This document shows positions 29,373 through 47,527 of a stretch of 64,000 bases of DNA, in pieces. A model generated the notes under the pieces. That model searched no databases. It saw only the letters and a program-made list of their open reading frames with translations, and was not told where the DNA came from. Both the position numbers and the translations under genes were made by a program. The first letter of the stretch is position 1; the number at the start of each line of letters is the position of its first letter. Source of the stretch: Amycolatopsis methanolica 239 (lineage in GTDB: Bacteria; Actinomycetota; Actinomycetes; Mycobacteriales; Pseudonocardiaceae); contig NZ_CP009110.1 in NCBI RefSeq assembly GCF_000739085.1, positions 6,262,001 to 6,326,000 of the forward strand. The letters are read 5' to 3'.

Positions 29373-29382
29373 GGCACCAGCC

Positions 29383-29550: not shown

Positions 29551-29566
29551 GAAATGGGACATGACC

Positions 29567-32677: not shown

Positions 32678-32849
32678 TACCGACCTCCCCGGGCACCCTG
32701 CGGCAGGGCACCGCCACCAGTCCACTCCACACGATCGAATCGCACTACGCCAACCGGGGGCGGCCGTGATCGAGCACACGGCTTGTCAACCGGCTTGCCT
32801 GGTCGCATGCTGGAAGCGCTCCAGCAACGACGCGTACGGAGGTGCCACG

Positions 32850-33593: not shown

Positions 33594-33598
33594 GACTA

Positions 33599-33630
33599 CC
33601 TCGGCCACGGCGCGCCGTGGCCGGCCGAGG
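33599..33630 (+). terminator. Terminator hairpin after the IclR gene
   Basis: The 16-bp palindrome CCACGGCGCGCCGTGG (33605-33620) is flanked by CCTCGG (33599-33604) and CCGAGG (33625-33630), giving a long GC stem with a small bulge, 6 bp after the iclR stop. There is no U-run. Confidence 0.6.
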
Positions 33631-33728
33631 GGCACCAGGCCCTCGGCGGTATCACCATTTGAAATCCGCGCCGTTGTCGGCGGTGGCCGCGCAGCGCGAG
33701 AGTTACTCCTGGATGCCAGGGAGGTCAG

Positions 33729-34703
33729 ATGGAACCGAAGATCGCATTGGATCTCTATCGCACCATGGTGCTGATCCGCACCTTCGAGGAAGCGATCCTG
33801 CGCGAGTACCACGCGGACAAGAAGCCCGTGTTCGACATCGGCGCGGGGCAGATTCCCGGCGAGATGCACCTGTCCGCCGGCCAGGAACCGGTCGCGGCGG
33901 GTGTCTGCGCACACCTCACCACCGACGACGCGGTGACCGCGACGCACCGGCCGCACCACTTCGCCATCGCGCACGGCGTCGACCTGCGGAAGATGGCCGC
34001 GGAGATCTTCGGCCGCGTCGATGGGCTCGGCCACGGCCGGGGCGGTCACATGCACCTGTTCGACCCCGACACCCACTTCTCCTGTTCCGGGATCATCGCC
34101 GAGGGCTACCCGCCGGCGCTCGGGCAGGCGCTCGCGTTCCAGCGCCAGGGCAACGCCCGCATCGCGGTGGCGGTCACCGGCGAGGGCGCGGCGAACCAGG
34201 GCGCCTTCCACGAATCCTTGAACCTGGCGTCGCTGTGGAAGCTGCCGGTGGTGTTCGTGGTGGAGGACAACGACTGGGGCATCTCGGTGCCGCGCAGCGC
34301 ATCCACCTGTGTCACCTCGAACGCGGTCCGCGCCGCCGGCTACGACATGCCGGGCGAGCGGGTCGAAGACAACTCCGTCGAGGCGGTGCACGCGGCGGCG
34401 GAGCGGGCCGTCGCCCGTGCGCGGGCCGGGGAGGGACCCAGCCTGATCGAGGTCCACACGCTCCGGCTCTGGGGACACTTCGAAGGCGACGCGCAGGGCT
34501 ACCGGCCCGACCTCGAAGGCGTGCCCGGCCGCGATCCGCTGCCGACCTACGAGGCCGAGCTGCGCCGAGCCGGCGTACTCGGCGACGCCGGGGCGCGGGA
34601 GGCGGCCGACGCGGCGGCGCAACGGGTGGAGGACGCGATCGCCTTCGCCAAGCAGAGCGCCGAACCGGCACCCGAAACCGCACGCGACTACGTGTTCGCC
34701 TGA
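33729..34703 (+). CDS. TPP-dependent 2-oxoacid/acetoin dehydrogenase E1 alpha subunit
   Basis: 324 aa, RBS GGGAGG before ATG at 33729. It belongs to the PdhA/AcoA family: HLSAGQEPVAAGVCAHLTTD, GRGGHMHLFD, and the thiamine-pyrophosphate motif GEGAANQGAFHESLNLASLW ending in EDNDWGIS. It decarboxylates or cleaves an oxo-compound and transfers the acyl group to lipoate together with the beta subunit. The single-domain size and the HMHLF motif fit acetoin-dehydrogenase-like E1. Substrate not provable. Operon: E1 alpha, E1 beta, lipoyl protein, with IclR upstream. Confidence 0.88.
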   Translation: MEPKIALDLYRTMVLIRTFEEAILREYHADKKPVFDIGAGQIPGEMHLSAGQEPVAAGVCAHLTTDDAVTATHRPHHFAIAHGVDLRKMAAEIFGRVDGLGHGRGGHMHLFDPDTHFSCSGIIAEGYPPALGQALAFQRQGNARIAVAVTGEGAANQGAFHESLNLASLWKLPVVFVVEDNDWGISVPRSASTCVTSNAVRAAGYDMPGERVEDNSVEAVHAAAERAVARARAGEGPSLIEVHTLRLWGHFEGDAQGYRPDLEGVPGRDPLPTYEAELRRAGVLGDAGAREAADAAAQRVEDAIAFAKQSAEPAPETARDYVFA

Positions 34704-34721
34704 CCCGATCGAGGAGAAGCC

Positions 34722-35768
34722 ATGACGCTCACCGAACCCTCGTCACCGGTACCCACCTCGACCCAACGCAAGCTCAGTACCGCCAAGGCCATGGTCGAGG
34801 GCATCGCGCAGGAAATGGAGCGTGATCCCGGCGTATTCGTGCTCGGCGAAGACGTCGGCAGTTACGGCGGGATCTTCAGCTCCACCACCGGGCTGCTGGA
34901 GAAGTTCGGCCCGCAGCGGGTGCTGGACACGCCGATCTCGGAGACCGCGTTCATCGGCACCGCGATCGGGGCCGCGGTCGAGGGCATGCGGCCGATCGTG
35001 GAGCTCATGTTCGTCGACTTCTTCGGCGTGTGCATGGACCAGATCTACAACCACATGGCCAAGATCCACTTCGAGTCCGGCGGCAACCTCACGGTGCCGA
35101 TGGTGCTCACCACGGCGGTCGGCGGCGGCTACTCCGATGGTGCGCAGCACTCGCAGTGCCTCTGGGGCACCTTCGCGCACCTGCCCGGCATGAAGGTGGT
35201 CGTGCCGAGTACGCCCGCGGACGCCAAGGGCCTGATGATCTCCGCCATCCGCGACGACAACCCGGTGGTCTACCTGTTCCACAAGGGGATCATGGGCCTG
35301 CCGTGGATGGCCAAGAACCGGCGCTCGATCGGCCCGGTGCCGGAGGACGAGTACGAGGTGCCCATCGGCAAGGCGAGCATCGTCCGCCCCGGCAGGGACG
35401 TGACGATCGTGACCCTGTCGCTGTCGGTGCACCACGCCCTTGACGTGGCCGACGAGCTGGCCGGCGACAACGTCGAGTGCGAGGTCATCGACCTGCGCAG
35501 CCTGGTGCCCATGGACACCGACACCATCCTCGAATCGGTTGGCCGGACCGGCAGGCTGCTCGTGGTGGACGAGGACTACCTGTCGTTCGGGTTGTCCGGC
35601 GAGGTGATCGCCCGCGTCGTCGAGCGCGATCCGACCCTGCTGCGCGCTCCCGCCAGGCGAGTCTGCGTTCCCGACGTGCCCATCCCGTACGCCCGCTCGC
35701 TCGAATACGCGGTCCTGCCGACCGCGGATCGGATCCGGCGGGCCGTGCTCGAGGTGGTCACCGCGTGA
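34722..35768 (+). CDS. TPP-dependent 2-oxoacid/acetoin dehydrogenase E1 beta subunit
   Basis: 348 aa, RBS GAGGAGA before ATG at 34722. PdhB/AcoB family: MERDPGVFVLGEDVGSYGGI, the DTPISETAFIGTAIGAAVEG region, and VECEVIDLRSLVPMDTDTIL of the transketolase C-terminal domain. It forms an alpha2beta2 E1 with the preceding product. 18-bp gap upstream, GTGA overlap with the lipoyl gene downstream. Confidence 0.9.
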   Translation: MTLTEPSSPVPTSTQRKLSTAKAMVEGIAQEMERDPGVFVLGEDVGSYGGIFSSTTGLLEKFGPQRVLDTPISETAFIGTAIGAAVEGMRPIVELMFVDFFGVCMDQIYNHMAKIHFESGGNLTVPMVLTTAVGGGYSDGAQHSQCLWGTFAHLPGMKVVVPSTPADAKGLMISAIRDDNPVVYLFHKGIMGLPWMAKNRRSIGPVPEDEYEVPIGKASIVRPGRDVTIVTLSLSVHHALDVADELAGDNVECEVIDLRSLVPMDTDTILESVGRTGRLLVVDEDYLSFGLSGEVIARVVERDPTLLRAPARRVCVPDVPIPYARSLEYAVLPTADRIRRAVLEVVTA

Positions 35769-35998
35769 CCGAGATCCCGTGTCCGATCATCTCCGACACC
35801 GACCCGGACGCCGAGGGGGTGGTCGCCACCTGGTTCGTCACCGATGGCGACCAGGTGCGGGAGGGCGACCTCATCGCCGAGGTGGCCGTCGACAAGGTCG
35901 ACATGGAGATCCCGGCCCCCGCATCCGGCGTGATTCGGCTACTGGCCAAGGAAGGTGACGTCCTCACCCAGGGCACCGTCGTGGCCCGCATCGAGTGA
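35765..35998 (+). CDS. Stand-alone lipoyl/biotinyl-domain protein
   Basis: 77 aa, GTG start overlapping the E1 beta stop (GTGA). The whole protein is one lipoyl domain: GVVATWFVTDGDQVREGDLI, then AVDKVDMEI with Lys44 as the lipoylation site, and ASGVIRLLAKEGDVLTQGTV. A normal E2 would continue with a peripheral-subunit-binding domain and a 230-residue acyltransferase. Neither is present, and the next gene is convergent. The protein can accept the acyl group from E1, but the acceptor that removes it is not encoded here. Confidence 0.88.
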   Translation: MTEIPCPIISDTDPDAEGVVATWFVTDGDQVREGDLIAEVAVDKVDMEIPAPASGVIRLLAKEGDVLTQGTVVARIE

Positions 35999-36003
35999 CC
36001 GCG

Positions 36004-36975
36004 CTACCCGGAGCTCCCGGCTGCTTGCCGCGCGTCGAGGCCGTTGCTCAGCGTGGCGAAGTCGCAGTAGGCGCGCGGTGACAGGCCGAACCGGCGGCGG
36101 AACTCGTTGATGAAGTGCGATGCGCTGGGGTAGCCGACCGCGCGCGAGATGCTGGCCACGGTACCGCCACCCGACACGAGCAGCTCCCGCGCGCGGTTCA
36201 ACCGCATCTCCTTGACGAACTGGTAGGGCGACTTACCGGTGGATTCGCGGAACAGCGCGGTGAAGGCGGACGGGCTGAGGGAGACGTGCTCGGCCATGTC
36301 CGCCACCGACAGCGGCTCGGCCAGGTGGTCGCGGGCGTAGGAGATGGCACGGGTGACCGGGTCGTGGAACTGCTGGTCCGCGGCTATCTGCAGGAGCCGG
36401 GAGTACTGGTCCGCCTGCAGCACGCGGTACACCATTTCCTGCAGGTAGGCCGGGGCGAGGATGCGCCGGTCCGAACCGCTGTCCAGCGCGCGCAGGAACC
36501 GCAGGACGGCGCCCATCAGGCCGCAGTCCAACGCGGAGACGAACGCGGGAGCGGACTCGGCGCCCGGCGACGGTTCGGTCAGCGCGGCCGACCGCCGCTC
36601 GACCATCTCGACCGAGACCTTCCGCACCACGGCCGGATCGATCTGCAGCACGAAGGACAGAAACGGCTTGGCGGCACTCGCTTCGACGATCTCCGCCTGG
36701 AAATGCAGGTGACTGTTGAGCACGAGGTAGTTCAACGGGTCGTAGCGGTAGGGCACGCCGTCGACGGTCACACATTTGCGTCCCTGCGCGACCACGCAAA
36801 GCGACAGCGACTGGACTTCCTCCCAGGTCGGCGCCGCCGGCTCGGCGAACCGGTAGATGGTCAGCCCTGGCCATAGCCCGGTGTTGGCCCCGAGTTCCGG
36901 GGCCCGCTCCAGCAACGCGGCGATGAGGTCGCCGGACGTCATCCTCTCTTCGAGGGCGCGCACTTCCTTGTGCAT
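36004..36975 (-). CDS. AraC family regulator (first of two paralogues flanking the monooxygenase operon)
   Basis: 323 aa. The N-terminal AraC_N cupin-like domain (about 25-190) reads WPGLTIYRFAEPAAPTWEEV, VAQGRKCVTVDGVPYRYDP. The C-terminal double HTH (about 205-305) reads SVADMAEHVSLSPSAFTALF, ISRAVGYPSASHFINEFRRR. It is clearly similar along its length to the AraC protein at 46071-47051. It sits downstream of the monooxygenase operon in the same direction (146-bp gap) and converges on the lipoyl gene. Likely an activator of the operon. Confidence 0.9.
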   Translation of the reverse strand: MHKEVRALEERMTSGDLIAALLERAPELGANTGLWPGLTIYRFAEPAAPTWEEVQSLSLCVVAQGRKCVTVDGVPYRYDPLNYLVLNSHLHFQAEIVEASAAKPFLSFVLQIDPAVVRKVSVEMVERRSAALTEPSPGAESAPAFVSALDCGLMGAVLRFLRALDSGSDRRILAPAYLQEMVYRVLQADQYSRLLQIAADQQFHDPVTRAISYARDHLAEPLSVADMAEHVSLSPSAFTALFRESTGKSPYQFVKEMRLNRARELLVSGGGTVASISRAVGYPSASHFINEFRRRFGLSPRAYCDFATLSNGLDARQAAGSSG

Positions 36976-37121: not shown

Positions 37122-37412
37122 TCAGTCGATCGTCTCGAAGGTGGCGACACTGCGCTCCACCAGGTTGGGAATGACCTCGCCGACGACGTAGGACTGAAAC
37201 GCGTCACTCGCCTTGTGGTCCGCATAGCCGGAGGCGTCGACATACTTCTCGTAGACCACGAACGTGTCCGGGTCGTCGATGCTGACCTGGGCCTGGAAGT
37301 GCAGCATCTTCTCCTCGGCCCGATTGATCGGGGTCACCGTTTCCAGCACTTTCCTGATGTGCTCGGCCTGGCCCGGCTTCGCCTTCCAGGTCGCGATCAC
37401 CACGTACGCCAT
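37122..37412 (-). CDS. Small antibiotic-biosynthesis-monooxygenase (ABM) domain protein
   Basis: 96 aa from ATG at 37412, with GGAGGG upstream. A single ferredoxin-like ABM fold: MAYVVIATWKAKPGQAEHIR, HFQAQVSIDDPDTFVVYEKY, VDASGYADHKASDAFQSY. ABM proteins are cofactor-free monooxygenases or, often, small dimeric binding proteins. As the distal gene of the diiron monooxygenase operon (20 bp after the L22/DUF59 gene), it may act on a downstream intermediate. The substrate is unknown. Confidence 0.85.
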   Translation of the reverse strand: MAYVVIATWKAKPGQAEHIRKVLETVTPINRAEEKMLHFQAQVSIDDPDTFVVYEKYVDASGYADHKASDAFQSYVVGEVIPNLVERSVATFETID

Positions 37413-37432
37413 TCGAACCCTCCTGCGCAAGA

Positions 37433-38194
37433 TCAGAAATTGGTGAAGCCGATTGCCCGCAGCTGCTCGCGGCCTTCGGCACTGATGTCCGCGGGCCGCC
37501 AGGTCGGCACCCACACCCATTCGACGAGGAAGTCCGAAACCAGGCCGCCGTTGTCAGTCAGCAGCACGGTGCGGATCTGATCCTCCATCACCTCGGTCAG
37601 CGGGCAGGCCGCCGAGGTGAGCGTCATGGTGATGGTCGCGACCCCGTTGTCGTCGACCACGACGTCGCGCACGAACCCCAGGTCGACGATGTTGACCCCG
37701 AGATCCGGGTCGATCACCTCGTACAGCGCCTCGCGGACGGTCTCGGCCATCGGGTTCGGTGTGACGTCCTGGTGCGCGCTCGCCTGCGGGCTCGCCGTGG
37801 TGCCGGGTCGATCGGGCGGCGCGGGAGCAGTGCCCACCTGAGTGACGTACAGCCCGGCCGGCTGGAGTTCGACGGACACATCGGCGGTGGGGCTGCTGAT
37901 CCAGTCCGCGATGCCGTGTGCCTTGCGCCGGACGCGAACAATGTCCTCCGCCGGTTCGGCCGATCCACCCGCGACGACCAGCTGGTCCGCCGCGATACCC
38001 GCCGCGTCCGCCCGCGCGAGCGCCTTGTCGATCACCCGCGCGACCGGTTCGCAGGTCCGTCCTGGTCCGAGCCTGAGCTTGGCCACCGCTTTGACGGCCG
38101 GCAACCCTCGGACCGCTTCGAGCGCGACGCGGGCTTCGTCCGCGACGACCCGCGCCTGCTGCTCCCGGACGGCCAGTATTCCCATCGTGGTCAT
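37433..38194 (-). CDS. Fusion of an L22-like domain with a DUF59/MIP18 Fe-S assembly domain
   Basis: 253 aa. Residues 1-112 resemble ribosomal protein uL22 (RVVADEARVALEAVRGLPAV, VIDKALARADAAGIAADQLV, RVRRKAHG) but lack the long extended hairpin typical of the ribosomal protein. A linker (113-148, TAPAPPDRPGTTASPQASAH) leads to a DUF59 domain (149-253: YEVIDPDLGVNIVDLGFVRD, TSAACPLTEVMEDQI with the conserved Cys197). DUF59 proteins help mature Fe-S or diiron proteins and recur near diiron monooxygenases. The L22-like part is unexplained and could bind RNA or a partner subunit. Confidence 0.8.
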   Translation of the reverse strand: MTTMGILAVREQQARVVADEARVALEAVRGLPAVKAVAKLRLGPGRTCEPVARVIDKALARADAAGIAADQLVVAGGSAEPAEDIVRVRRKAHGIADWISSPTADVSVELQPAGLYVTQVGTAPAPPDRPGTTASPQASAHQDVTPNPMAETVREALYEVIDPDLGVNIVDLGFVRDVVVDDNGVATITMTLTSAACPLTEVMEDQIRTVLLTDNGGLVSDFLVEWVWVPTWRPADISAEGREQLRAIGFTNF

Positions 38195-38221
38195 GGTGAC
38201 TCCTTCTCCGACACTGGCGGC

Positions 38222-39463
38222 TCAAGCTCGGGCGGTGGCCCACGGCGACCGCGGTATCAGCCGCTTGAGGGGTACCGATTCGTCGCGCAGTTGCTCGGCG
38301 GTCACCTCGTGCGGCGCGAAGAGCATCCGCCGCACCTCAAGCACGTCTCGGGGGCGGTTGAGGGAGATCACCGCTTGGATCCGGCCGTCGACAAGGGAGA
38401 ACGCCGAGAAGTCGTGGTCCTCCAACGAGCCGCGGATGACGAGGTCTTCGAGGTCGGCCGGCCGGCCGACCGACTGCAGGCTGTGCTCGTACTGATCCGA
38501 CCAGAACCAGTGCGCCTCGGCGAACGGCTCCGCCGAGCCGGTCAGATTGAGTGCCACATTGGCGCCCTGGCGCAGGGCGTTGTCGTGATGCTCCACCCGG
38601 ATCGTCCTGCCGTAGACCGGGTGATACTGCGCTGCCACGTCGCCTGCCGCGTAGATATCCGGCGCCGAGGTCCGCCCGTACTCGTCGACCACGATCCCGC
38701 CGTCCGTCGCCAGGCCGGCCTCGGCGGCGAGTTCGACATTGGGTTCACAGCCGATCCCCACCACCACCAGGTCACACTCGACACGGTGGCCGAGGTTGGA
38801 GGTCAGCAGCATCCCGTCCCCGGTGTGCCGGAGCTCGCTGATGTACTCCCCCGCCCGGATCTGCACCCCGCGCGACCGGTGGATCCCGGTCATCACGGAG
38901 CCGATCGTGGCGCCGAGCACCCGCGCCAGTGGGGTCGGCGCCGGATCGAAGATCGTCACCTGCTTGCCGAGCCCGACCGCCGCCGCGGCCACCTCGCACC
39001 CGATGAAACCCGCGCCGATGACCACCACCCGCTCGGACTCGGCCAGCTGCGCGCGAAGCCGCTGCGAGTCCGCGGCGGTCCGCAGGTAGTGCACCCGGTC
39101 GCCGTCGAACCCAGGCAGCCGCCGTGGCCGCACCCCGGTGGCGAGCACCAGCCCGTCGTACCCGAGCCGCTCGCCGGTGGACAAGGTCACCGACCGCCCC
39201 GGCACATCGATCGCGGTCACCCTGATGCCGACGCGCAGGTCGACAGACTGCTCGTCGTACCAGGCCGGCGGCCGCACCTGGAACTCCTCGAATTCGGTGG
39301 TCCCGAGCAGGAAGTCCTTGGACAGCGGCGGCCGCTCGTACGGCGGCTGTGGCTCGTCGCCGACCAGCACGATCTCACCGTCAAATCCGTGCTTGCGCAG
39401 GTGGGTGGCGGTGGCCGCGGCCGCGACCCCGCCCCCCACCAGCACATGACGCCGGGTGCTCAT
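38222..39463 (-). CDS. CamA/BphA4-class ferredoxin reductase of the diiron monooxygenase
   Basis: 413 aa from ATG at 39463 (ATGA overlap with the Rieske gene). FAD fold RRHVLVGGGVAAAATATHLR, LSKDFLLG, NAD fold RVVVIGAGFIGCEVAAAAVG, and second FAD contact IYAAGDVA. A C-terminal reductase_C domain (HWFWSDQYEHSLQSVGR) follows. It passes electrons from NAD(P)H to the Rieske ferredoxin. Unlike TmoF/IsoF-type reductases of group-2 diiron monooxygenases, it has no plant-type 2Fe-2S domain and belongs to the glutathione-reductase-like fold. Confidence 0.9.
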   Translation of the reverse strand: MSTRRHVLVGGGVAAAATATHLRKHGFDGEIVLVGDEPQPPYERPPLSKDFLLGTTEFEEFQVRPPAWYDEQSVDLRVGIRVTAIDVPGRSVTLSTGERLGYDGLVLATGVRPRRLPGFDGDRVHYLRTAADSQRLRAQLAESERVVVIGAGFIGCEVAAAAVGLGKQVTIFDPAPTPLARVLGATIGSVMTGIHRSRGVQIRAGEYISELRHTGDGMLLTSNLGHRVECDLVVVGIGCEPNVELAAEAGLATDGGIVVDEYGRTSAPDIYAAGDVAAQYHPVYGRTIRVEHHDNALRQGANVALNLTGSAEPFAEAHWFWSDQYEHSLQSVGRPADLEDLVIRGSLEDHDFSAFSLVDGRIQAVISLNRPRDVLEVRRMLFAPHEVTAEQLRDESVPLKRLIPRSPWATARA

Positions 39464-39786
39464 CGGACGTCCACCAGGATCGTGCCGTCCTCTTCGACCC
39501 GGCACGGGTAGGTGATCAGCTCGCAGTTGTCCGGGTTCGTGCCCTTGCCGCTGAGCGCGTCGAACGTCCACATGTGGCGCACGCAGGTGATGGTCTGCCC
39601 GTCGAAGTCGCCTTCGTCGAGGGCCCACGCCTGGTGCGGGCACCGGTTCTTGTACGCCCGGACCTCACCGTCGATATTGACGAGCAGGACCTTCTTGCCG
39701 TCGATCTCGACGCCCTCCATCTCGCCTTCCCAGAGGTCGTCGAGATGCATGGCTTCCTGCCACTGCCCGGTTATTGCGCTGCTCAT
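39460..39786 (-). CDS. Rieske ferredoxin component of the diiron monooxygenase (TmoC-like)
   Basis: 108 aa from ATG at 39786 (TGATG overlap with the beta-subunit stop). Cluster ligands Cys49-x-His51 (NRCPHQAWAL) and Cys68-x2-His71 (ITCVRHMWTF) define a [2Fe-2S] Rieske protein of the TmoC type, which delivers electrons to the hydroxylase diiron site. In toluene-4-monooxygenase clusters it is the third gene; here it is fifth, next to the reductase. Confidence 0.93.
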   Translation of the reverse strand: MSSAITGQWQEAMHLDDLWEGEMEGVEIDGKKVLLVNIDGEVRAYKNRCPHQAWALDEGDFDGQTITCVRHMWTFDALSGKGTNPDNCELITYPCRVEEDGTILVDVR

Positions 39787-40838
39787 CACCCTGCCCTCTT
39801 CCCTTCTCCGGCCGCCTCCAGCCCCTCGAACAGTCGCGCGTGGAAGGCTTCCCGCGCCGCCTTGGCCCCGGCCGCGACCTCGTCGGCCGCTCGACCGTGC
39901 TCCGGCCGGGTCTCCAGTAACCTGCCGAGCCCGTGTGCCGCCGCGTCCGCGACCGGGGTCCAGCGGGCAATCCAGCGACGGAGCACGTCGGCGTTTTCGG
40001 GTTTCTGCTGCAGGCAGAAGCCCGCGAGCGCGGCGCTCCACCGGTTGCGGCGATCGTTGTCCGCCTGCAGGAAGGACAGCAGCAACCAGGAGAGCTGGTC
40101 GCCGTTGTCGCGCGAGACCTCCGTGAACTGGCGGACCAGCACGTCATCGATGGTCGGTGCCAGCACCAGGTTGAGCGCGGTGAACGCCTCACCCCAGTCG
40201 TAGGCGATCAGTGCCTTCTCGATCGCCTGCCGTGCCGGCTGCCATGCCTCGTCGTTTTCCCAGATCCCGCGCTCCGCGGTGCCGATGCCCGAGTCCGGGT
40301 GGGCAAGCTGCAGCTCGCGGGTTCGGTACGCGGTGAGGGTCACCCGGCGCAGGTAGTCCGCGGTCGCGAAGCTGGCCGCGTTGGTGACGTACGACGTCGG
40401 CGCCATGTAGCCGATGTAGGCCTCGACCTGCTGGCATCCGTGCAGGAGGTAGCGGGACGGGGTGAACATCGACCCGAGCAGCGCGACCTGGCCGGGGGTG
40501 AGCGCCGAGTCCGCGTTCGCCTCGGCGAACTCCTCCAGCACGCCCGCGGTCTTGGTCTCGGCTTCGGCCTGCAGGTTGACGTAGGTCTTGTACGTCATCG
40601 AGTCCGGGTCGCGGAACTGCTCCCAGTCCTCCGCCTTGAGCGGTGAGTTCTCCCGGTAGGTGAGGAACCACAGGTTAGGCGGGGACGACGGGTTGTGCTC
40701 GAACGCCGACGGGCGGTTGGCACGCATCGTCCAGTTCTGCCCGTGCGTCACGATCTCGTACTCGCTCGGCATCCGGCGCACGTCGCCGAATGCGCTGAAG
40801 GTCCGGCGCGGGCGCGCCTTCCTCGGCTGACCGGTCAT
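39786..40838 (-). CDS. Diiron monooxygenase hydroxylase beta subunit (TmoE-like)
   Basis: 350 aa from ATG at 40838 (ATGA overlap with the effector stop). Four-helix-bundle non-catalytic partner of the alpha subunit: RRTFSAFGDVRRMPSEYEIV, SPLKAEDWEQFRDPDSMTYK (family signature), and GCQQVEAYIGYMAPTSYVTN. It lacks the carboxylate/histidine ligand set, as expected. The C-terminus (about 320-350) is a charged helical tail. It forms the (alpha-beta-gamma)2 hydroxylase with its neighbours. Confidence 0.92.
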   Translation of the reverse strand: MTGQPRKARPRRTFSAFGDVRRMPSEYEIVTHGQNWTMRANRPSAFEHNPSSPPNLWFLTYRENSPLKAEDWEQFRDPDSMTYKTYVNLQAEAETKTAGVLEEFAEANADSALTPGQVALLGSMFTPSRYLLHGCQQVEAYIGYMAPTSYVTNAASFATADYLRRVTLTAYRTRELQLAHPDSGIGTAERGIWENDEAWQPARQAIEKALIAYDWGEAFTALNLVLAPTIDDVLVRQFTEVSRDNGDQLSWLLLSFLQADNDRRNRWSAALAGFCLQQKPENADVLRRWIARWTPVADAAAHGLGRLLETRPEHGRAADEVAAGAKAAREAFHARLFEGLEAAGEGKRAG

Positions 40839-41152
40839 GACCGCGCTCCTTCCCTCGCCAAGGCGTTCTTCTTCGCCGACACCTTCTCCCACGTGATCGA
40901 GTCACTCGTAGTGGTGATGCGGCCGTTGAAGGACGACATCATCGACTCGAAGGTGCGGATCTCGTAGTCCGCGCCGAGGTAGGCGCGGAGCGTGTCCTGG
41001 GTGACGACCAGGCGATCTTCGCCCTGCACCCGGATGTACGAGCCGCGGTCGATGACCTCGATCTCGTGGTCCGGGTTGTCGTCTTCGATGGCGGCGATGA
41101 TCTGCTCGACCTCGTCGCCCATCCGCAGGATCGGCCCGACAGGATTCTTCAT
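40835..41152 (-). CDS. Diiron monooxygenase effector/coupling protein (MmoB/DmpM family, TmoD-like)
   Basis: 105 aa, ATGA overlap with the gamma-subunit stop. VGPILRMGDEVEQIIAAIED and NPDHEIEVIDRGSYIRVQGE are the MmoB/DmpM hallmark. ESMMSSFNGRITTTSDSITW ends the fold. It binds the alpha subunit near the diiron site and gates O2 and substrate, and has no cofactor of its own. Confidence 0.92.
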   Translation of the reverse strand: MKNPVGPILRMGDEVEQIIAAIEDDNPDHEIEVIDRGSYIRVQGEDRLVVTQDTLRAYLGADYEIRTFESMMSSFNGRITTTSDSITWEKVSAKKNALAREGARS

Positions 41153-41457
41153 GACTTGCCCTTCGGGATGTCGTACTCGACGCGGACGTGATCCAGCGGC
41201 GCTATGCCCGCTTCGGCGACGGTCATCTCCGGTGGCAGGCGCCTGCCGTTGTGGAAGACGACCTTCTCGTAGGGCAGGGCGCGGACCCGCTTGCCCTCGA
41301 CGTGGTGCGCGACCGCGGCCGCGACCTCGCGGACGGTGTCTGCGGTGGTCACCGGCACCAGGATCTGCACGAAGTCGTCGGCGAAGACCGCGTTCAGCGG
41401 CACCACCTGCGGCGCCTGGTCCTCGATGGGAAGCTCCACCGTGGCATTCTCGGTCAT
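41149..41457 (-). CDS. Diiron monooxygenase hydroxylase gamma subunit (TmoB-like)
   Basis: 102 aa, ATG at 41457 overlapping the alpha-subunit stop. The ubiquitin-like TmoB fold is recognisable: VFADDFVQILVPVTTADTVR, EVAAAVAHHVEGKRV, RLPPEMTVAEAGIAPLDHVR. It is about 18 residues longer than I recall for TmoB because of an N-terminal extension (TENATVELPIEDQAPQ). Structural subunit of the hydroxylase. Confidence 0.9.
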   Translation of the reverse strand: MTENATVELPIEDQAPQVVPLNAVFADDFVQILVPVTTADTVREVAAAVAHHVEGKRVRALPYEKVVFHNGRRLPPEMTVAEAGIAPLDHVRVEYDIPKGKS

Positions 41458-42986
41458 GACTGGTCACCCTTCGCCGTGCTCAGCGCGAGCCCGGTCGCCG
41501 GCCGGCCGGTGTAGTCCTTGGTCCATGCGGCGTAGTCGGGGTCGTCGCCCATCACGTCCGGGGTCATCCCCATGTAGTTGAGGATGCCGCCGACGTCCAT
41601 CGGCTGGATATGGCCGGCCAGAAAGCGATCGATCAGCGTCTCGTGGTTGACGTTGTCACGGTCCTTCCACCAAATCTGCCGGCACGCGTTGGTGCAGAAG
41701 TGATAGGTCTTCCCGCCGTAGGACAGGGACCAGTCACGCACCCGCCAGGTGCCGTCGCGCGACTGGGTGGCGTTGCACGCCGGCAGGTGGCACATGCTGC
41801 ACAACCACGGCAACGTCTCGGGCAGCGTGGCCTCGACGTTGTTCGCGTTGATGTTGTCGATCATGGTGTCCCACTTGCCGCCGTACACCTTCTCCCAGTT
41901 GGGGTACTTCTCCTGCAGCCACTCGCGCTCGTCCTTGCTGACCCCGGCCTTCGGCCGCCACCACAGGGTCGGGCGCCAGTACCACAGGCCCATGTGCAGC
42001 CCGTGGTGCCAGGTGTCCAGGCCACGCATGAACTCGTCCCAGAACCAGGGCTTCTTCAGCCCGTAGTCCTCGATGGTGTGGATGAACTGGTCGATGATCC
42101 ACTCCTCCATGAACTCCCGGTAGGACTGCTTCCGGTGTTCCAGAGGGGTGTAGTAGTCCATCGCCGGGCCGGTGAGCGCGGCGAACGCGCGAGCGGAACC
42201 CCAGAAACTGCGGTCGATGACCCATTGCGCGCGCACCGGGTCGTGCTCGACCAGGATCTCCATGGTCGGCCCGCCCTGCTGGGAGTGCCTGGCCTCGTCG
42301 GTCTGGATCGACGAAATCATGTTCGCGAAGTTGACGTCGCCGGACTCCAGCGCGTCGGCCGACAGCGCGACGAACTGGAGGTTGGTGAAGCCGGTCTCGA
42401 AGGTGAACGGCAGCTCGATCGCCAGGTCGACCACGTTCGGCGAGATCATCATGTTGTCGAAGAGGTTCCGCAGCGCGATCGGCACCCAATCGTTGGTGTG
42501 GAAGGTCTTCTGCGTCCAGTCGTACTGCGGGTCCTTGCCGACGAACTCGTGCCCGAAGAAGGTGGTGATCTGCGCGTGGCGCAGCTCGTCCAGCTGACCG
42601 AAGGTCGCCATGTTGCGCCAGGCCCCGTTGAGGCCGAACCGAGCCATCTTCAGCTCGCCGAGGACCGCGGCGTACTCGACGAGGGCCACCCCGCCGAAGT
42701 GCATCTTGGTGGAGGATTTCCAGCCCTCGTCCAGGTTGTCGAAGGCGGTGGACCGCTGCAGCGCCGCCTTCACCGCGTACGCCGACGCTTCCTTCTCACG
42801 CTGTGTCGCGACGTACTCAGGGTAGGTGACCTTGTAGTTCTCCTCCCAGGACAACCACGCCTCACGCGGCACCTTGCCGGTACCGCTGTGCCACTCCGGG
42901 AACACCGCCTCGTCGTCAACGTAGCGGAAGGTCCAGTCGACGTCACGAACGAAGTGCTGCCACTCTTCGCGTTTCAGCAAGGTCAT
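41454..42986 (-). CDS. Soluble diiron monooxygenase alpha subunit, group 2 (toluene-4-monooxygenase type)
   Basis: 510 aa catalytic subunit. Diiron ligands Glu104, Glu134, His137, Glu197, Glu231 and His234 fall at the numbers I recall for toluene-4-monooxygenase, and Thr201, Phe205, Phe176, Phe196, Asn202 and Gln228 of its pocket and gate are kept. Position 103 is Val where T4MO has Gly, and 100 is Val where it has Ile, so the cavity should be smaller. The C-terminal region carries a YHS-like Cys site (LCSMCHLP, then YHFCTNACRQIWW). It inserts one O atom from O2 into an aromatic, alkene or alkane. First of six monooxygenase genes (order A-B-D-E-C-F). Confidence 0.93.
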   Translation of the reverse strand: MTLLKREEWQHFVRDVDWTFRYVDDEAVFPEWHSGTGKVPREAWLSWEENYKVTYPEYVATQREKEASAYAVKAALQRSTAFDNLDEGWKSSTKMHFGGVALVEYAAVLGELKMARFGLNGAWRNMATFGQLDELRHAQITTFFGHEFVGKDPQYDWTQKTFHTNDWVPIALRNLFDNMMISPNVVDLAIELPFTFETGFTNLQFVALSADALESGDVNFANMISSIQTDEARHSQQGGPTMEILVEHDPVRAQWVIDRSFWGSARAFAALTGPAMDYYTPLEHRKQSYREFMEEWIIDQFIHTIEDYGLKKPWFWDEFMRGLDTWHHGLHMGLWYWRPTLWWRPKAGVSKDEREWLQEKYPNWEKVYGGKWDTMIDNINANNVEATLPETLPWLCSMCHLPACNATQSRDGTWRVRDWSLSYGGKTYHFCTNACRQIWWKDRDNVNHETLIDRFLAGHIQPMDVGGILNYMGMTPDVMGDDPDYAAWTKDYTGRPATGLALSTAKGDQS

Positions 42987-43029
42987 TTCTCCGAGATTCC
43001 TTTCACTGCGCTGAGCAAGAAGGGGATTG

Positions 43030-43506
43030 TCAGTCGACTTCGAGGTGGCCGAGCTGGCGGTTGATTCCGGCCCCATTCCAGTAAGCCTTGATCTTGTCGA
43101 TGAGGCCGTTCTCGTCGACGTGGAAGATGAACAGGTGTGGCTCGCTGAACCTGCCACCCTTCGGTGCGGCGAACCCCCACGGGGACTGCTGGGTTCCGCC
43201 GATGTCGCACATCACAACGACATCGCCCTTGTCATTGGCGTCGATGCTGTGGACCACGTTGAACAGATCGGGAAAGGAGTTGATCAGGCCGCTCCAGATG
43301 ACCTTGCCGACGGTGCGCACCTTGCCGTCCCCGCGCAGCACCCGCTGCTTCCCCCACACCTCGTACGGGACATAGGAGAAGTCGGCGTTGTCGGTGCACA
43401 TCTCGGTCATCGTCTCGACGTCGTGGCGCGAGTACGCCTCGAAGAACGCGGCGACCACATCGGCGGGGGACGTGAGCTCTCGGGTTGCTGGTTCCGTGGT
43501 AGTCAT
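43030..43506 (-). CDS. NTF2-like (SnoaL/ketosteroid-isomerase fold) protein
   Basis: 158 aa, ATG at 43506. A single cone-shaped NTF2-like domain: ADVVAAFFEAYSRHDVETMT, EMCTDNADFSYVPYEVWG, LINSFPDLFNVVHSIDANDK, LFIFHVDENGLIDKIKAYWN. The fold hosts SnoaL cyclases, ketosteroid isomerases and limonene-type epoxide hydrolases. Placed 43 bp upstream of the monooxygenase alpha gene, it may process the oxygenated product, such as an epoxide. The catalytic set is not identifiable by eye. Confidence 0.85.
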   Translation of the reverse strand: MTTTEPATRELTSPADVVAAFFEAYSRHDVETMTEMCTDNADFSYVPYEVWGKQRVLRGDGKVRTVGKVIWSGLINSFPDLFNVVHSIDANDKGDVVVMCDIGGTQQSPWGFAAPKGGRFSEPHLFIFHVDENGLIDKIKAYWNGAGINRQLGHLEVD

Positions 43507-43514
43507 GGGAGCCC

Positions 43515-43994
43515 TCACACAATCGCGATCTGGTCGAGTCGTTTCACGGCAAGGCGGCGGTAGAGCTGGTTCTGGCACCAGTAGACGTGGATACCGACGA
43601 TGTGGTCACCATCCACTGTGAACCGCCACGCCTGATCGACGTCCAGGTGCTTCTCCTGGTTGACCGCGCCGGCGTAGTCCGCGGCCTGGGTGCCCTCGAC
43701 CTTGAGTTCCGCGGTGACCACCGAGCCGGTTTCGATGACGTCCTTGATCACCAGGTGAAGATCGGGGAATGCGGTGACGATGTCCGTCAGCGCGGTGCGG
43801 ATGTCGTCGAAGCCGCCTTCTCGGACATCGAGGGGAAAGATCTCCACTCGGACCGACTTGTCCACAACGGACAGTGCTGCCTCGACATCCCTGAGCTGGA
43901 AGGCGTTGAGGAATGCCCTGACGGTCTGTTCCGGCGTAGTGTTCACAATCCCTTGCTCCTCACGGGGAATCGACTTGCGTTTGAAGAGCTTCAT
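43515..43994 (-). CDS. NTF2-like (SnoaL fold) protein
   Basis: 159 aa from ATG at 43994 (ATGA overlap with the DJ-1 gene). VRAFLNAFQLRDVEAALSVV, IVTAFPDLHLVIKDVIETGS and HLDVDQAWRFTVDGDHIVGI show the fold. It is a second, diverged NTF2-like protein, 8 bp before the other. Paired NTF2-like genes often make heteromeric enzymes, such as the small-alpha/beta ketosteroid-type hydratases, and that is possible here. Confidence 0.83.
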   Translation of the reverse strand: MKLFKRKSIPREEQGIVNTTPEQTVRAFLNAFQLRDVEAALSVVDKSVRVEIFPLDVREGGFDDIRTALTDIVTAFPDLHLVIKDVIETGSVVTAELKVEGTQAADYAGAVNQEKHLDVDQAWRFTVDGDHIVGIHVYWCQNQLYRRLAVKRLDQIAIV

Positions 43995-45010
43995 CGGATC
44001 TGGAGTGCCTTGAGGACAGCGTCCGCGGTGGCCTCGGTCGATGCGGGGTTCTGACCGGTGATCAGATTGCGGTCGACCACCACATGCGAGACCCACGCGG
44101 CCGGGCCGTCGTCGAACACCGCGCCGGCGTTCTTCAGTGCGGTGTCCACGTACCACGGCAACCCGAGCTTGCCGGGGGCCGTCTGGTCCTCCTCCTCGTC
44201 GGTGAAACAAGTCATGCGGTAGCCGTCGAACAGCCACTGCCCGTCTTCCCGCTCCGGCGCGGACAGCAGCAGGGCGGGGCCGTGGCACAGCGAGGCGATC
44301 GGCGCGGTCTTCTCGTGCAGGATCGTCAGCAGGCGGGCGACGTGCGGGTTGTCTGCGAGGTCGACCATCGGCCCGTGCCCGCCTGGGGCGAACACGGCGT
44401 CGAACTCGGCGAGCTGCTCGTCGGTCAGATCGGCTAGGGAAACGGGATTGCGGAAGCCCGGAATGGCTTCGAGTCGCCTGCGGCGCTCCGCGGCGAGCGC
44501 CCGGCTCGCCTCGTCTAGCTCGTCGACGGCCGCCTGGATCTCCGCACGGGACAGACCGCCGTCGATACCCTCCTCCACCATCACATCGATCAGCTGGCGG
44601 TCCTCCCGCCACGCGATCTTCGCCGCCTTGCTGACCAGCGCATGCGCGTCGCTCGCCGACATCCCGCGCTCCTTGAGTCGCGCCGCGATGCGGCGTGCCG
44701 CGACCAGACCCTGTTCGGTCATATGGTGCAGCGTCACCCGGACGTCGTCGGGATCCTGGTGGAACGTACGGGTGACGGAGGCGAAGTAGTCCTGGTCCTC
44801 TTCGGGATAGTGGAAGAAGTTCTCGAGCCCGTACGGGTCGGCGAAAGGCTCGCGGCCGTCCGGGGTGACCACTACGACGTCGGCGCCCGCGGCAACAAAC
44901 CGTTCGTACGGTTTCAAGGCTTCTTCGGCGAAGTAACCGGTGGGATGCAGTGTGCCGTCTGCGAGTTCGATCTCGCGAGCACTCGAGACCAGGTAAGCGA
45001 TACGCGGCAT
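43991..45010 (-). CDS. DJ-1/PfpI (Hsp31-like) protein with a long helical insertion
   Basis: 339 aa, the first gene of the monooxygenase operon. The DJ-1 alpha/beta core is split: strand 1 and the acid residue (GYFAEEALKPYERF, about 26-40) are followed by an insertion of about 120 residues (70-190), mostly helical and highly charged (KERGMSASDAHALVSKAAKI, RALAAERRRRLEAIPGF). The core then resumes with FDAVFAPGGHGPMVDLADNP and nucleophile Cys242 (ASLCHGPALLLSA). Ordinary Hsp31/glyoxalase-III-type members are 220-290 aa. It may remove methylglyoxal or similar reactive carbonyls produced by the pathway. Confidence 0.87.
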   Translation of the reverse strand: MPRIAYLVSSAREIELADGTLHPTGYFAEEALKPYERFVAAGADVVVVTPDGREPFADPYGLENFFHYPEEDQDYFASVTRTFHQDPDDVRVTLHHMTEQGLVAARRIAARLKERGMSASDAHALVSKAAKIAWREDRQLIDVMVEEGIDGGLSRAEIQAAVDELDEASRALAAERRRRLEAIPGFRNPVSLADLTDEQLAEFDAVFAPGGHGPMVDLADNPHVARLLTILHEKTAPIASLCHGPALLLSAPEREDGQWLFDGYRMTCFTDEEEDQTAPGKLGLPWYVDTALKNAGAVFDDGPAAWVSHVVVDRNLITGQNPASTEATADAVLKALQIR

Positions 45011-45087: not shown

Positions 45088-45165
45088 GATTCCTACGAGA
45101 GTTGTGCGGATTCCGACACGGTTGGGAGGGGTGTGTGGATTCCTGCTGATCTCTGCAAGATTCAG
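45088..45165. repeat. 21-bp-period repeat, family 3 (GATTCC)
   Basis: GATTCC/GATTCA boxes start at 45088, 45109, 45138 and 45159. Two intervals are exactly 21 bp and one is 29 bp. TGCGGATTCCGAC and TGTGGATTCCTGCTGA recur almost unchanged at 47471-47504. It lies in the divergent promoter region of the two DJ-1 genes. Confidence 0.65.
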
Positions 45166-45240: not shown

Positions 45241-45270
45241 CTCATCACATCCGACGCAGAGAGGCATTCC

Positions 45271-45996
45271 ATGACGCGCGTACTGTTCGCAGTGTCCGGA
45301 AAGGACTACTGGACGCTGGCCGACGGCACCCGGCACTCCTGCGGTTTCTGGCCCGAGGAGCTGGCCGTTCCGCACCAGGTCTTCCGCGCCGCCGGTTTCG
45401 ACATCACGATCGCCACCCCTGGCGCCGCCGTCCCGACGGCGGACGAAGCCGGTTTCACCGCGGCCATGAACGGGGGTTCGGAAGAGCCGGGCAAGCGATT
45501 CCGCGCATACCTCGACAGCATCGCCGCCGAGCTCAACTCGCCGGTGGATCTGGACGAAGTGGACGCCGGCGACTTCGACTTCGTGTTCGTCCCCGGTGGA
45601 CACGGGCCGATGGAGGATCTTGCCGTGTCGGAGAAGTTCGGCGCGCTCGTCCGCAACTTCACCGACTCCGGGAAAGCGGTCGCGGCCGTCTGCCACGGCC
45701 CGGCCGCCCTGTTGCCGGCCAAGGACGACAACGGAAACTGGCTGTTCGCGGGCCGTCGGGTCACCGGCTTCAGCAATGTCGAGGAGGGGCAGGTCGGCTT
45801 CGCCGACAAGGCGCCGTGGCTGCTGGAAGACCGGCTCATCGCCAGCGGCGGCAAGTTCGAGAAGAGCGGCGGCCCATGGGAACCGCACGTGGTGGTGGAC
45901 GGGAACCTTTACACCGGACAGAATCCGGCGGCCTCCGAGCCTCTGGCGGAGCAGCTCGTCAAGGCGCACAGCGCGGTGCTGGAAACCGTGAAGTAA
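45271..45996 (+). CDS. DJ-1/PfpI family protein (Hsp31/glyoxalase III-like)
   Basis: 241 aa. VLFAVSGKDYWTLADGTRHS, GFWPEELAVPHQVFRAAGFD with the active-site Glu, FVFVPGGHGPMEDL, and nucleophile Cys141 in AVCHGPAALLPA. This is the compact form of the family without the insertion found in its divergent neighbour. It is divergent from the monooxygenase operon (260-bp gap) and ends at a strong terminator. Likely a glutathione-independent glyoxalase or chaperone protecting against reactive carbonyls. Confidence 0.88.
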   Translation: MTRVLFAVSGKDYWTLADGTRHSCGFWPEELAVPHQVFRAAGFDITIATPGAAVPTADEAGFTAAMNGGSEEPGKRFRAYLDSIAAELNSPVDLDEVDAGDFDFVFVPGGHGPMEDLAVSEKFGALVRNFTDSGKAVAAVCHGPAALLPAKDDNGNWLFAGRRVTGFSNVEEGQVGFADKAPWLLEDRLIASGGKFEKSGGPWEPHVVVDGNLYTGQNPAASEPLAEQLVKAHSAVLETVK

Positions 45997-46070: not shown

Positions 46071-47051
46071 TCAGCCCTTCTGGATTCGCAGCTCATGACT
46101 GAGCGACTGCAGATCGCAGTACGCACGCGGGGTCGCACCGAACCGGTCGCGGAACTCATTGATGAAATGGGATGCGCTCGAATAGCCGACCGCCCGCGAG
46201 ATCTGCGTTACGCTCAGCTTGTTCTCGATCAGCAACTCCCGCGCGCGGTTGAGCCGCGTCTCTTTCACGAATTGGTAAGGCGACTTACCCGTGACGTCGC
46301 GGAAGAGATGAGAGAACGCGGACGGGCTGAGTGAAACCTGCTCCGCCATGTCGCTCACCGTCAGGGGCTCGGACATGTTTTTCCGCACGTAGGAGATGAC
46401 CTCGCTGACCGGGTTGCTGGCGGCCTGGGTGGCGGCGATCTCCAGCAGCCGGGCGTACTGCTCCGCCTGCAGCACCCGGTAGACCATCTCCTGCAGATAG
46501 ACCGGCGCCAGCACCCGCCGGTCGGCCCCGGTGTGCGTCGCACGGAGGAACCGCATCGCCGCGCCCATCAGGTTACAGTCGAGCGCGGTGACGAACGCGC
46601 GCTCCGGCTTGCTCTCCACCGGCCGCCCGAAGGTCGTGGTGCGGCGGTCGAGGATGTCCGACGACACCCGCCGGACCAGGGTGGGATCGATCTGCAGAAC
46701 GAAGGACAGGAAGGGCTTGGCCGGGGTGGCTTCGAGGATCTCGGCCTGGAAGTGCTGGCTGCTACTCAGCACCAGGTAGTTGAACGGGTCATAGAAGTAC
46801 TTCTGCCCGTCGACCGTGACGCATTTGCGCCCCTGCGCGATGATGCACAGCGACAGCGACTTGACCTCGGCCCACTTCGGCGCGACCGGATGCGTGAAAC
46901 GATAGAACGTCAGCCCTGGCCATCCCCCGTTATTGCCGCCGAGCTCCGGGGCACGGGATCGGATCTCGGTGAGCAGGTCACCCGAGGTGTGGATCTCGTG
47001 GAGCTGACGAAGCATTTCGGTCATGTCGGCATCTCCCGTGGTGTCGATCAT
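46071..47051 (-). CDS. AraC family regulator (second paralogue near the monooxygenase operon)
   Basis: 326 aa. AraC_N domain (WPGLTFYRFTHPVAPKWAEV, IAQGRKCVTVDGQKYFYDP) and C-terminal double HTH (TVSDMAEQVSLSPSAFSHLF, QISRAVGYSSASHFINEFRD). It shares long identical blocks (KCVTVDG, KPFLSFVLQIDP, GKSPYQFVKE, LNRARELL) with the AraC at 36004-36975, so the two arose by duplication. It probably regulates the divergent DJ-1/monooxygenase promoters that lie next to it. Confidence 0.9.
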   Translation of the reverse strand: MIDTTGDADMTEMLRQLHEIHTSGDLLTEIRSRAPELGGNNGGWPGLTFYRFTHPVAPKWAEVKSLSLCIIAQGRKCVTVDGQKYFYDPFNYLVLSSSQHFQAEILEATPAKPFLSFVLQIDPTLVRRVSSDILDRRTTTFGRPVESKPERAFVTALDCNLMGAAMRFLRATHTGADRRVLAPVYLQEMVYRVLQAEQYARLLEIAATQAASNPVSEVISYVRKNMSEPLTVSDMAEQVSLSPSAFSHLFRDVTGKSPYQFVKETRLNRARELLIENKLSVTQISRAVGYSSASHFINEFRDRFGATPRAYCDLQSLSHELRIQKG

Positions 47052-47093
47052 CGAGCCCGGCGTCCGATCGAGGAGTAGCCGACTGGGGCTGCG

Positions 47094-47335
47094 AGTGCCG
47101 CGCTCGGTTCGGCCAGAGCCAGTGCCGCGTGCGACTCGGCGGGGGCCAGCGATGCCGCGCTCGGTTCGGTCGAAGCCAACGCCCCACCACGCGGCTGGGC
47201 CGAGGCCGGTGCCACGCCGTACCGCTCACCTGCAGGTACCAGCGCCGCTGCGTACGGCCCAGTCGGGACCACCTCCGTCGCCACCTGCGGCTCGGCCGGA
47301 GCTACCAGCGCCGCGCCGTATCGCCCAGCGCTCGC
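47094..47335. repeat. Degenerate 27/30/33-bp tandem repeat, family 4
   Basis: Units marked by AGTGCCGCG-like starts lie at about 47094, 47121, 47151, 47178, 47208 and 47241, with more diverged copies to 47335. GCGCTCGGTTCGG recurs at 47099 and 47156. Unit lengths are multiples of three, so the minus strand reads as Ala/Pro/Glu-rich decapeptide-like repeats, but no start signal supports translation. It occupies the upstream region of the AraC gene. Confidence 0.6.
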
Positions 47336-47473
47336 CCTAGCCGCCTGAGCAGGCAATTCGAGCTCGGCCGGTAGTCCAATCACCGCATTCCTCCCCATGC
47401 AGGTTCCCGGTGCGCACCCCGTCCCGTGCGGCACTGATCGACATTACGGCTGGTCGGGGACCGCGATGATGTG

Positions 47474-47527
47474 GATTCCTACTGAGTTCGTGCGGATTCC
47501 GACTGGATCGCCGTTGGCGGGGATTGG
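47474..47527. repeat. 21-bp-period repeat, family 3 (GATTCC), second locus
   Basis: GATTCC at 47474 and 47495 (21 bp apart) with a weaker GATTGG at 47522. The surrounding text matches the array at 45088-45165. Confidence 0.6.

Follow-up and report, generated by a model that had tools for sequence, protein, structure and literature searches.

Gene content of the locus

The window analysed in this study is a 64,000-nucleotide stretch (G000:C1:6262001-6326000) of the 7.24-Mb single-contig genome of Amycolatopsis methanolica 239. It harbours eleven genes, all read leftward from 45010 to 37122, which encode a group-2-like diiron monooxygenase together with accessory proteins and which are referred to below as the cassette. 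The original prediction had described these genes as a single operon, and the junctions bear this out. Six of the ten overlap, five of them by a 4-nt ATGA (DJ1a/NTF1, A/B, B/D, D/E and C/F) and one by 1 nt (E/C), and the other four are separated by 8 nt (NTF1-NTF2), 43 nt (NTF2-A), 27 nt (F-L22) and 20 nt (L22-ABM). Every named domain was backed by Pfam, and the Pfam and NCBIfam scans agreed with the names first given to the genes, with two corrections. From first to last, the genes are:

43991..45010, minus strand: DJ1a, DJ-1/PfpI protein (Hsp31-type), 339 aa, with an ADSL_C-like insert at residues ~101-163 (domain scans, homologue alignment)
43515..43994, minus strand: NTF1, SnoaL-like NTF2-fold protein, 159 aa
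43030..43506, minus strand: NTF2, second SnoaL-like NTF2-fold protein, 158 aa
41454..42986, minus strand: A, diiron hydroxylase alpha subunit, 510 aa (PF02332)
41149..41457, minus strand: B, hydroxylase gamma subunit (TmoB), 102 aa (PF06234, 118.2 bits)
40835..41152, minus strand: D, effector/coupling protein (MmoB/DmpM), 105 aa (PF02406, 104.5 bits)
39786..40838, minus strand: E, hydroxylase beta subunit, 350 aa (PF02332, 240.2 bits)
39460..39786, minus strand: C, TmoC-like Rieske ferredoxin, 108 aa (PF00355; best solved match protein C of toluene-4-monooxygenase (T4MO), E 1.6e-23)
38222..39463, minus strand: F, NADH:ferredoxin reductase of the BphA4/putidaredoxin-reductase type, 413 aa (PF07992 and PF14759; best solved match putidaredoxin reductase, E 1.7e-82)
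37433..38194, minus strand: L22-MIP18 fusion (Ribosomal_L22 and FeS_assembly_P, by Pfam), 253 aa
37122..37412, minus strand: ABM-domain protein, 96 aa (PF03992, 51.1 bits)

Conservation and distribution of the cassette

Named genomes were scanned with the alpha subunit as query, which yielded 29 loci; an annotated Rhodococcus koreensis plasmid was the 30th. The block DJ1a-NTF1-NTF2 was immediately upstream of A in all 30 loci, although DJ1a is truncated in L018, where the contig stops, and is in two pieces in L032. The continuation B-D-E-C-F-L22, which completes a ten-gene order, could be sought in 23 loci of sufficient length and was found in 22 of them. As this order recurs in so many long loci and on the annotated plasmid, the arrangement is not due to chance, and the accessory set that the original prediction had called unusual is conserved in other genomes. 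Fewer than 30 of the loci are independent, since L004, L031 and L020 are almost the same as the window or as another locus. The L22 counts refer to matches (in two pieces in L014, L015, L016, L018 and L023), not to a single reading frame checked locus by locus. L023 keeps the ten-gene order but with extra copies of ABM, F and L22 pieces. The early-branching L027 is the exception: an AraC gene lies between E and C, F is elsewhere, and no L22 match was found in its neighbourhood, the last point counting against the function proposed below. The gene after L22 was ABM in 10 of these 22 loci and a third NTF2-like gene in 8, two of them (L019 and L020) apparently from a single strain; neither was found in the other 4.

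The divergence of the accessory proteins followed that of A. Pairwise Spearman correlations with A were 0.88 for DJ1a, 0.73 for NTF1, 0.82 for NTF2 and 0.83 for L22, and none of 500 permutations was as high. L004, L020, L031 and pieces that were too short were omitted from the family alignments, the tree and the co-divergence analysis, and 310 residues were required for DJ1a. A value for the second DJ-1 gene, DJ1b (rho 0.29), was discarded as unusable, since DJ1a was counted as the best match wherever DJ1b was absent.

The hosts were mostly actinomycetes, with three proteobacterial loci: L022 and L028, from metagenome-assembled genomes, and L026, from Bordetella genomosp. 12. In a survey of 298 genomes of the order, A was matched at E<=1e-100 in nine, seven of which had an A only 43-48% identical. 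DJ1a (E<=1e-60) was found in two genomes, exactly those with an A more than 80% identical, and in none of the seven; among the matches listed, the full-length L22 fusion was likewise confined to the two genomes with a close A. A phylum-wide survey detected DJ1a in 1 of 396 genomes, the window's own. The cassette is rare among the sequenced genomes of the order, though the alpha clusters are rich in metagenomic members, single clusters holding hundreds and up to 1037 sequences. On plasmids, the next alpha subunit after that of R. koreensis was 50.9% identical among the matches listed (30 of 70 plasmid records). The Pseudonocardia dioxanivorans CB1190 locus (L031) is nearly identical to the window, and the P. 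dioxanivorans genome has two cassettes.

A contig of Amycolatopsis echigonensis JCM 21831 (L004:1-8005) encodes proteins 97-100% identical to those of the window from AraC1, a regulator described below, through A, which could reflect either recent transfer or contamination. A decayed second copy of the cassette is present in the genome of the window at G000:C1:3362600-3366090 (L039:6623-10088). Its E is in pieces, its F consists of two overlapping pieces and its L22-MIP18 frame has a stop, with C and ABM matched at full length; no match to A, B, D, DJ1a, NTF1 or NTF2 was found within 19.5 kb around it. Genome-wide, NTF1 and NTF2 gave one match each, and A and DJ1a had no second close match.

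The hydroxylase and its phylogeny

Residue conservation was counted in the best 120 homologues of each protein, taken from match lists of 3681, 1985 and 1479 entries. The six diiron ligands of A (E104, E134, H137, E197, E231 and H234) are intact; E197 was present in 119 of the best 120 homologues, with one gap, and the other five in all 120. T201, N202 and Q228 are also present. The gamma (TmoB), beta, effector and Rieske ferredoxin components of a group-2 system were all identified by Pfam. In the tree, 28 alpha subunits formed one clade (support 100/99), with the Xanthobacter Py2 alkene monooxygenase as the nearest named branch (100/98), and ToMO and four plasmid group-2 enzymes fell outside the A clade plus Py2. 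Ligands, component domains and tree placement agree in identifying a group-2-like diiron hydroxylase, as predicted. Judged by sequence, the A clade is a distinct branch of such monooxygenases with a fixed accessory set, and its function is put forward below as a proposal.

A is about 50% identical to the ToMO alpha subunit (51%) and 46% identical to that of Py2, and its match to T4MO was also strong. V103 is common to A and the Py2 enzyme. The Q141 of ToMO is replaced by T in the window and in 24 of the 27 other clade members, with N, G or S in the remaining three; across the best 120 homologues this position was T in 49, S in 27, D in 16 and N in 13. A107 and F176 are shared with ToMO, and also with every other outgroup in the alignment.

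A four-cysteine, YHS-like motif was observed in A (residues 396, 399, 431 and 435) and was kept in the clade and in 111-117 of the best 120 homologues. Outside the clade it was present in two Rhodococcus and one Thermomicrobium sequence, half present in ToMO and Paraburkholderia, and absent from Py2. Among metagenomic alpha subunits, some of ~580-610 aa were fused to TmoB (P0256, P0259, P0270, P0295, P0313 and others), and two of those listed (P0255 and P0347) were fused to the MmoB/DmpM effector.

Gene order and reductase

The cassette has the order alpha-gamma-coupling-beta-ferredoxin-reductase (A-B-D-E-C-F). The group-2 order given in the accessible part of PMC13188929 is alpha-gamma-ferredoxin-coupling-beta-reductase, which was found in all five outgroup loci and is not followed by the cassette. 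F consists of Pyr_redox_2 and Reductase_C domains with no Fer2 domain, and its nearest relatives are putidaredoxin and biphenyl-dioxygenase reductases. The TmoF reductase has a plant-type 2Fe-2S domain in addition to FAD/NAD domains, a combination not found in F. The outgroup reductases were annotated as 2Fe-2S proteins in four of five cases and as an FAD-binding oxidoreductase in Xanthobacter Py2. The complete six-component T4MO-type system of the original prediction is therefore retained for five components but not for the reductase, and the cassette departs from the compared group-2 systems in two respects, its gene order and its BphA4/putidaredoxin-reductase-type reductase.

Accessory proteins

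DJ1a had been described as a long DJ-1 protein, and its extra length was traced to an insert (residues ~101-163) resembling the C-terminal domain of adenylosuccinate lyase. This insert scored 26.9 bits with ADSL_C in the window copy, below the 32.7 cut-off, and was matched in 18 of 24 family members (E<=1e-3). E30, C242 and H243 were invariant in all of the best 120 homologues and correspond, by sequence alignment rather than superposition, to the Glu, Cys and His of the glyoxalase III/Hsp31-type DJ-1 active site. The Cys and Glu are essential in Hsp31, according to the accessible part of PMC5297802. DJ1a differs from these proteins by the insert and by many further invariant residues, and scored below the NCBIfam HchA equivalog cut-off (90.6 vs 365 bits).

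The closest folds to NTF1 and NTF2 include Streptomyces SnoaL2, AclR, IdmH and the polyketide enzyme KstA15. Both proteins share the NTF2-like fold with limonene epoxide hydrolase, whose catalytic set is Asp-Arg-Asp.

In the L22-MIP18 fusion, both halves pass Pfam (Ribosomal_L22, PF00237, 53.6 vs 28 bits; FeS_assembly_P, 62.9 vs 23.5 bits), so that each is a member of a family known from uL22 and from MIP18/PaaD/SufT-type proteins, here joined in one protein. The L22 half was below the rplV_bact equivalog cut-off (39 vs 73.65), and a separate rplV gene is present at 666113-666424 of the genome. The MIP18 half was below the PaaD, SUF_assoc and SufT equivalog cut-offs (70.3/180, 44.7/108.15, 61.9/143.4 and 47.8/202.6). 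Among the best 120 homologues, C197 of the MIP18 half was present in 120 and C48 of the L22 half in 116. The net charge of the L22 half was -2 to +6 in 18 members and -3 to +6 (median +3) in 120 homologues, compared with +8 over 120 residues for the rplV of the same genome. This drop is only moderate, and the pI exceeded 9 in 6 of the 18 members, so that the L22 half may still bind nucleic acid to some extent, a point that weighs against the proposal made below.

GroEL-like proteins are reported to assist some other diiron monooxygenases. The original prediction had noted that no GroEL-type chaperone was present, and none was found in the cassette or in the neighbouring genes scanned, a search for chaperonins across the whole genome not having been made. 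It is tentatively suggested, as a possibility that we hold rather doubtful, that the L22 paralogue has taken on the targeting role in a metallocentre-maturation factor dedicated to this branch of diiron monooxygenases, doing the job of GroEL-like proteins elsewhere, and that the insert-bearing DJ-1 enzyme carries out an undescribed reaction on an epoxide- or enedial-like product passed on by a SnoaL-like heterodimer.

Regulation

The features beside the cassette that bear on its regulation are:

45089..45117, minus strand: putative AraC operator, a direct repeat with 21-bp spacing upstream of DJ1a
47475..47503, minus strand: second occurrence of the operator pattern, lying 424 nt upstream of AraC1 (pattern search)
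45247..45996, plus strand: DJ1b, divergent second DJ-1/PfpI (Hsp31-type) protein (PF01965), its start being uncertain (45211 or 45247)
46071..47051, minus strand: AraC1, regulator with AraC_N and HTH_18 (Pfam), with a similar gene close to the cassette at 25 of the 29 loci
36004..36975, minus strand: AraC2, second AraC_N-type regulator, downstream of ABM and also found in L008, L009, L025 and L031

The direct repeat reached a score of at least 13 of 18 in 22 of 26 loci and scored above all 60 mononucleotide shuffles in 18 of 26. These figures are partly circular: the loci scored are also those from which the consensus had been picked by eye, and the shuffled sequences preserved nothing beyond mononucleotide composition. 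The second window site was not used for the consensus and gives partly independent support; the pattern search of the 64-kb window returned two sites against 0.02 expected. Genome-wide, eight matches were found and none with the backward control, the other six resembling the cassette site less. Two proteobacterial loci (L022 and L026) have neither the repeat nor a nearby AraC1, and the third (L028) has both. L010 and L033, in which an AraC gene is present and the repeat reaches only 12 of 18, count against a link between the two. AraC1 shares its AraC_N domain with YqhC, an AraC-type regulator of E. coli. As far as the accessible part of PMC5297802 goes, YqhC responds to glyoxal.

An Ala/Pro-rich open reading frame (ORF) at 47048-47434 (minus strand) is a possible leader gene of AraC1; its stop overlaps the AraC1 start (ATGA), and the second operator-like repeat is just upstream of it.

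Flanking genes and other loci

The original prediction had taken the nearby E1/lipoyl genes as evidence of the pathway. By tblastn these were found only beside the near-identical L031 and at none of the 28 other loci, with flanks of at most 10 kb and less in several; the E1/lipoyl and IclR genes (32748-35998) are not conserved beside the cassette and were rejected as members of the system. Clustering of 205 flank ORFs gave an aldehyde dehydrogenase family in seven loci, a third NTF2-like family in six, a short-chain dehydrogenase/reductase-like family in four and an SRPBCC-like family in three (these two named by eye), and five families of two loci each. Aldehyde dehydrogenases resembling succinate-semialdehyde dehydrogenase (SSADH) lay within 10 kb in L011, L013, L019/L020, L022, L026, L023, L025 and L033. 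They are 34-78% identical to that of L026, whose score of 855.7 clears the NADP-SSADH equivalog cut-off of 828. In alkene-oxidising group-2 clusters, aldehyde dehydrogenases come just after the monooxygenase genes, according to the accessible part of PMC13188929. A serine hydroxymethyltransferase gene beside the R. koreensis cassette was found in that locus only and was set aside.

Elsewhere in the window, a fatty-acid-desaturase/ferredoxin-reductase fusion (777 aa) is followed by a GMC oxidoreductase (27039-31285, plus strand), a pair resembling an alkane- or methyl-oxidising one. An R2-like protein (PF00268) is encoded at 25023-26003, and a Mce-type gene (MlaD and Mce4_CUP1) at 6520-7698 (minus strand), in a leftward run at 3945-10989. 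Two further diiron monooxygenase loci of the genome, L046 (G000:C1:4452000-4463500) and L047 (2456500-2468000), look by eye like propane-monooxygenase-type clusters with amidohydrolase-like genes.

Proposed function and alternatives

From the gene content, its conservation and co-divergence, the intact ligand and catalytic residues and the upstream repeat, we infer a self-contained, AraC-induced and probably horizontally moving cassette that would epoxidise an alkene or (hetero)arene, a reading to which we give an even chance. Electrons from NADH would pass through the BphA4-type flavoprotein F and the TmoC-like Rieske ferredoxin C to the diiron hydroxylase A/B/E with its effector D. The substrate would most likely be a small, hydrophobic alkene or (hetero)arene, which the hydroxylase would oxygenate to an electrophilic epoxide or arene oxide; the two SnoaL-like proteins might hydrate, isomerise or rearrange this product. 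The DJ-1 enzyme, with its Hsp31-type thiol and Glu, might act on the resulting reactive carbonyl, and an SSADH-like aldehyde dehydrogenase may complete the step in several relatives. The L22-MIP18 fusion would serve specifically to mature the diiron and/or Rieske centres. The aldehyde dehydrogenase genes near relatives, V103 and the tree make alkene-type epoxidation the first choice, weakly. It may be speculated that a furan-type heteroarene giving a C4 dialdehyde would suit both SSADH and the DJ-1 enzyme.

Several observations weigh against this proposal. The tree was rooted at its midpoint and the Py2 branch is long (1.31), and position 103 is variable, being V in only 55 of the best 120 homologues (I in 34, A in 19), so that the alkene affinity of A is weak. 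No conserved complete downstream pathway was recognised in the flanks; outside the clusters these were inspected visually, as partial sequences from 18 loci, so that a lone pathway gene could be overlooked. No aldehyde dehydrogenase adjoins the window operon, and L019 and L033 encode SSADH-like proteins that scored 524.6 and 558.6, below the SSADH cut-offs of 646.35. In the fold ranking of NTF1 and NTF2, polyketide cyclases, limonene epoxide hydrolase and ketosteroid isomerases came close together, and no reaction is indicated by it.

An ordinary toluene/benzene-type ring hydroxylase making phenols, with the DJ-1, NTF2-like and ABM proteins guarding against quinones and stress, would account for the identity of A to ToMO, the strong T4MO match, the proximity of the Rieske protein to TmoC and the residues A107 and F176, the last two being of little discrimination as all other aligned outgroups have them. 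Relatives are also named 'toluene monooxygenase' in databases, which was taken as automatic naming. This is nevertheless unlikely: no phenol hydroxylase or ring-cleavage gene was recognised by eye in the flanks, in contrast to the Paraburkholderia cluster with its meta-cleavage set, the ToMO Q141 is replaced (by one of T, S, D and N in 105 of the 120 wider homologues), and the accessory genes are strictly linked to A and co-diverge with it.

The alpha-oxocarbonyl intermediate of the original prediction, here read as a route in which a ketone would be hydroxylated to an alpha-hydroxyketone and converted to a 2-oxoaldehyde and then, by the DJ-1 enzyme, to a hydroxy acid, appears somewhat less probable still. 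The Glu/Cys/His set of glyoxalase-III-type DJ-1 proteins in DJ1a, the flanking DJ1b and the AraC_N-type regulator, with the glyoxal response of YqhC as far as it is described, keep such an intermediate conceivable. Its E1/lipoyl support falls away, however, DJ1a misses the HchA cut-off, and no alcohol dehydrogenase that could make the oxoaldehyde was detected in the cassette by Pfam. Group-2 hydroxylases are known for oxidising alkenes and aromatics and are not known to act on ketones. An epoxide-to-aldehyde route fits the SSADH-like genes and the weak alkene affinity at least as well as an alpha-oxocarbonyl one.

Least probable is a biosynthetic tailoring cassette for a secreted small molecule, which the SnoaL-like and ABM proteins typical of polyketide pathways, the folds closest to NTF1 and NTF2 and the many Streptomyces, Amycolatopsis and Pseudonocardia hosts might suggest, but against which stand the lack of any core biosynthetic gene recognised by eye in the flanks, the cassettes in Bordetella and two other proteobacterial contigs, the aldehyde dehydrogenase genes near relatives and, in two loci, a protein that by eye looks like the phenol-degradation MetA type, to which NCBIfam assigned no family.

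Comparison with known systems

No description of the cassette was found in the literature searched, from which subscription papers were excluded, and the prediction of a gene set with no characterised counterpart held to that extent. Some relatives are called 'propane 2-monooxygenase' in UniRef, again taken as automatic naming. The accessible part of a tmoA survey lists four copies for P. dioxanivorans (PMC9535955), and since that genome has two cassettes, tallies of toluene degraders may mislead; counting cassette hosts among them may be wrong. The branch lies within the soil-actinomycete 'toluene monooxygenase' genes and differs from every compared relative in gene order, reductase and accessory genes. 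Because the accessory set is fixed, both the substrate and the part played by the L22-MIP18 fusion can be tested directly, and the cassette is a good experimental target.

Other group-2 diiron systems are ibcABCDEF of Mycolicibacterium sp. ELW1 and isoABCDEF (PMC13188929, in its accessible part). According to the same text, the ibc operon has the order alpha-gamma-F-C-beta-R and encodes an epoxide hydrolase and alcohol and aldehyde dehydrogenases, with the downstream genes ibcH, ibcJ and ibcK; isoprene clusters have the dedicated genes isoGHIJ, as far as PMC12917321 was accessible. These dedicated downstream genes are missing from the cassette, in whose eleven genes Pfam detected no glutathione transferase, alcohol or aldehyde dehydrogenase or alpha/beta-type epoxide hydrolase, and the terms 'DJ-1' and 'NTF2' do not occur in the main text of PMC13188929. 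The accessory set is thus unlike those of the isobutylene and isoprene clusters, as had been expected, the distinction being drawn from their published descriptions rather than from ibcA or isoA sequences.

The Xanthobacter autotrophicus Py2 alkene monooxygenase resembles the window system in V103, in being the nearest named branch and in its adjacent aldehyde dehydrogenase, a gene likewise found near some relatives of the window. It differs in the 46% identity of its alpha subunit, its standard gene order and its nearby 2-hydroxypropyl-CoM lyase gene. With TmoABCDEF/TouABCDEF the cassette has in common the alpha, beta and gamma subunits, the effector, the Rieske ferredoxin and all ligands, but it differs in its A-B-D-E-C-F order, its reductase of another family and the replacement of Q141, and adds the DJ-1, NTF2-like, L22-MIP18 and ABM genes. 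The group-2-like enzyme type is therefore known, and what appears to be new is a distinct diiron-monooxygenase branch with a fixed accessory set.

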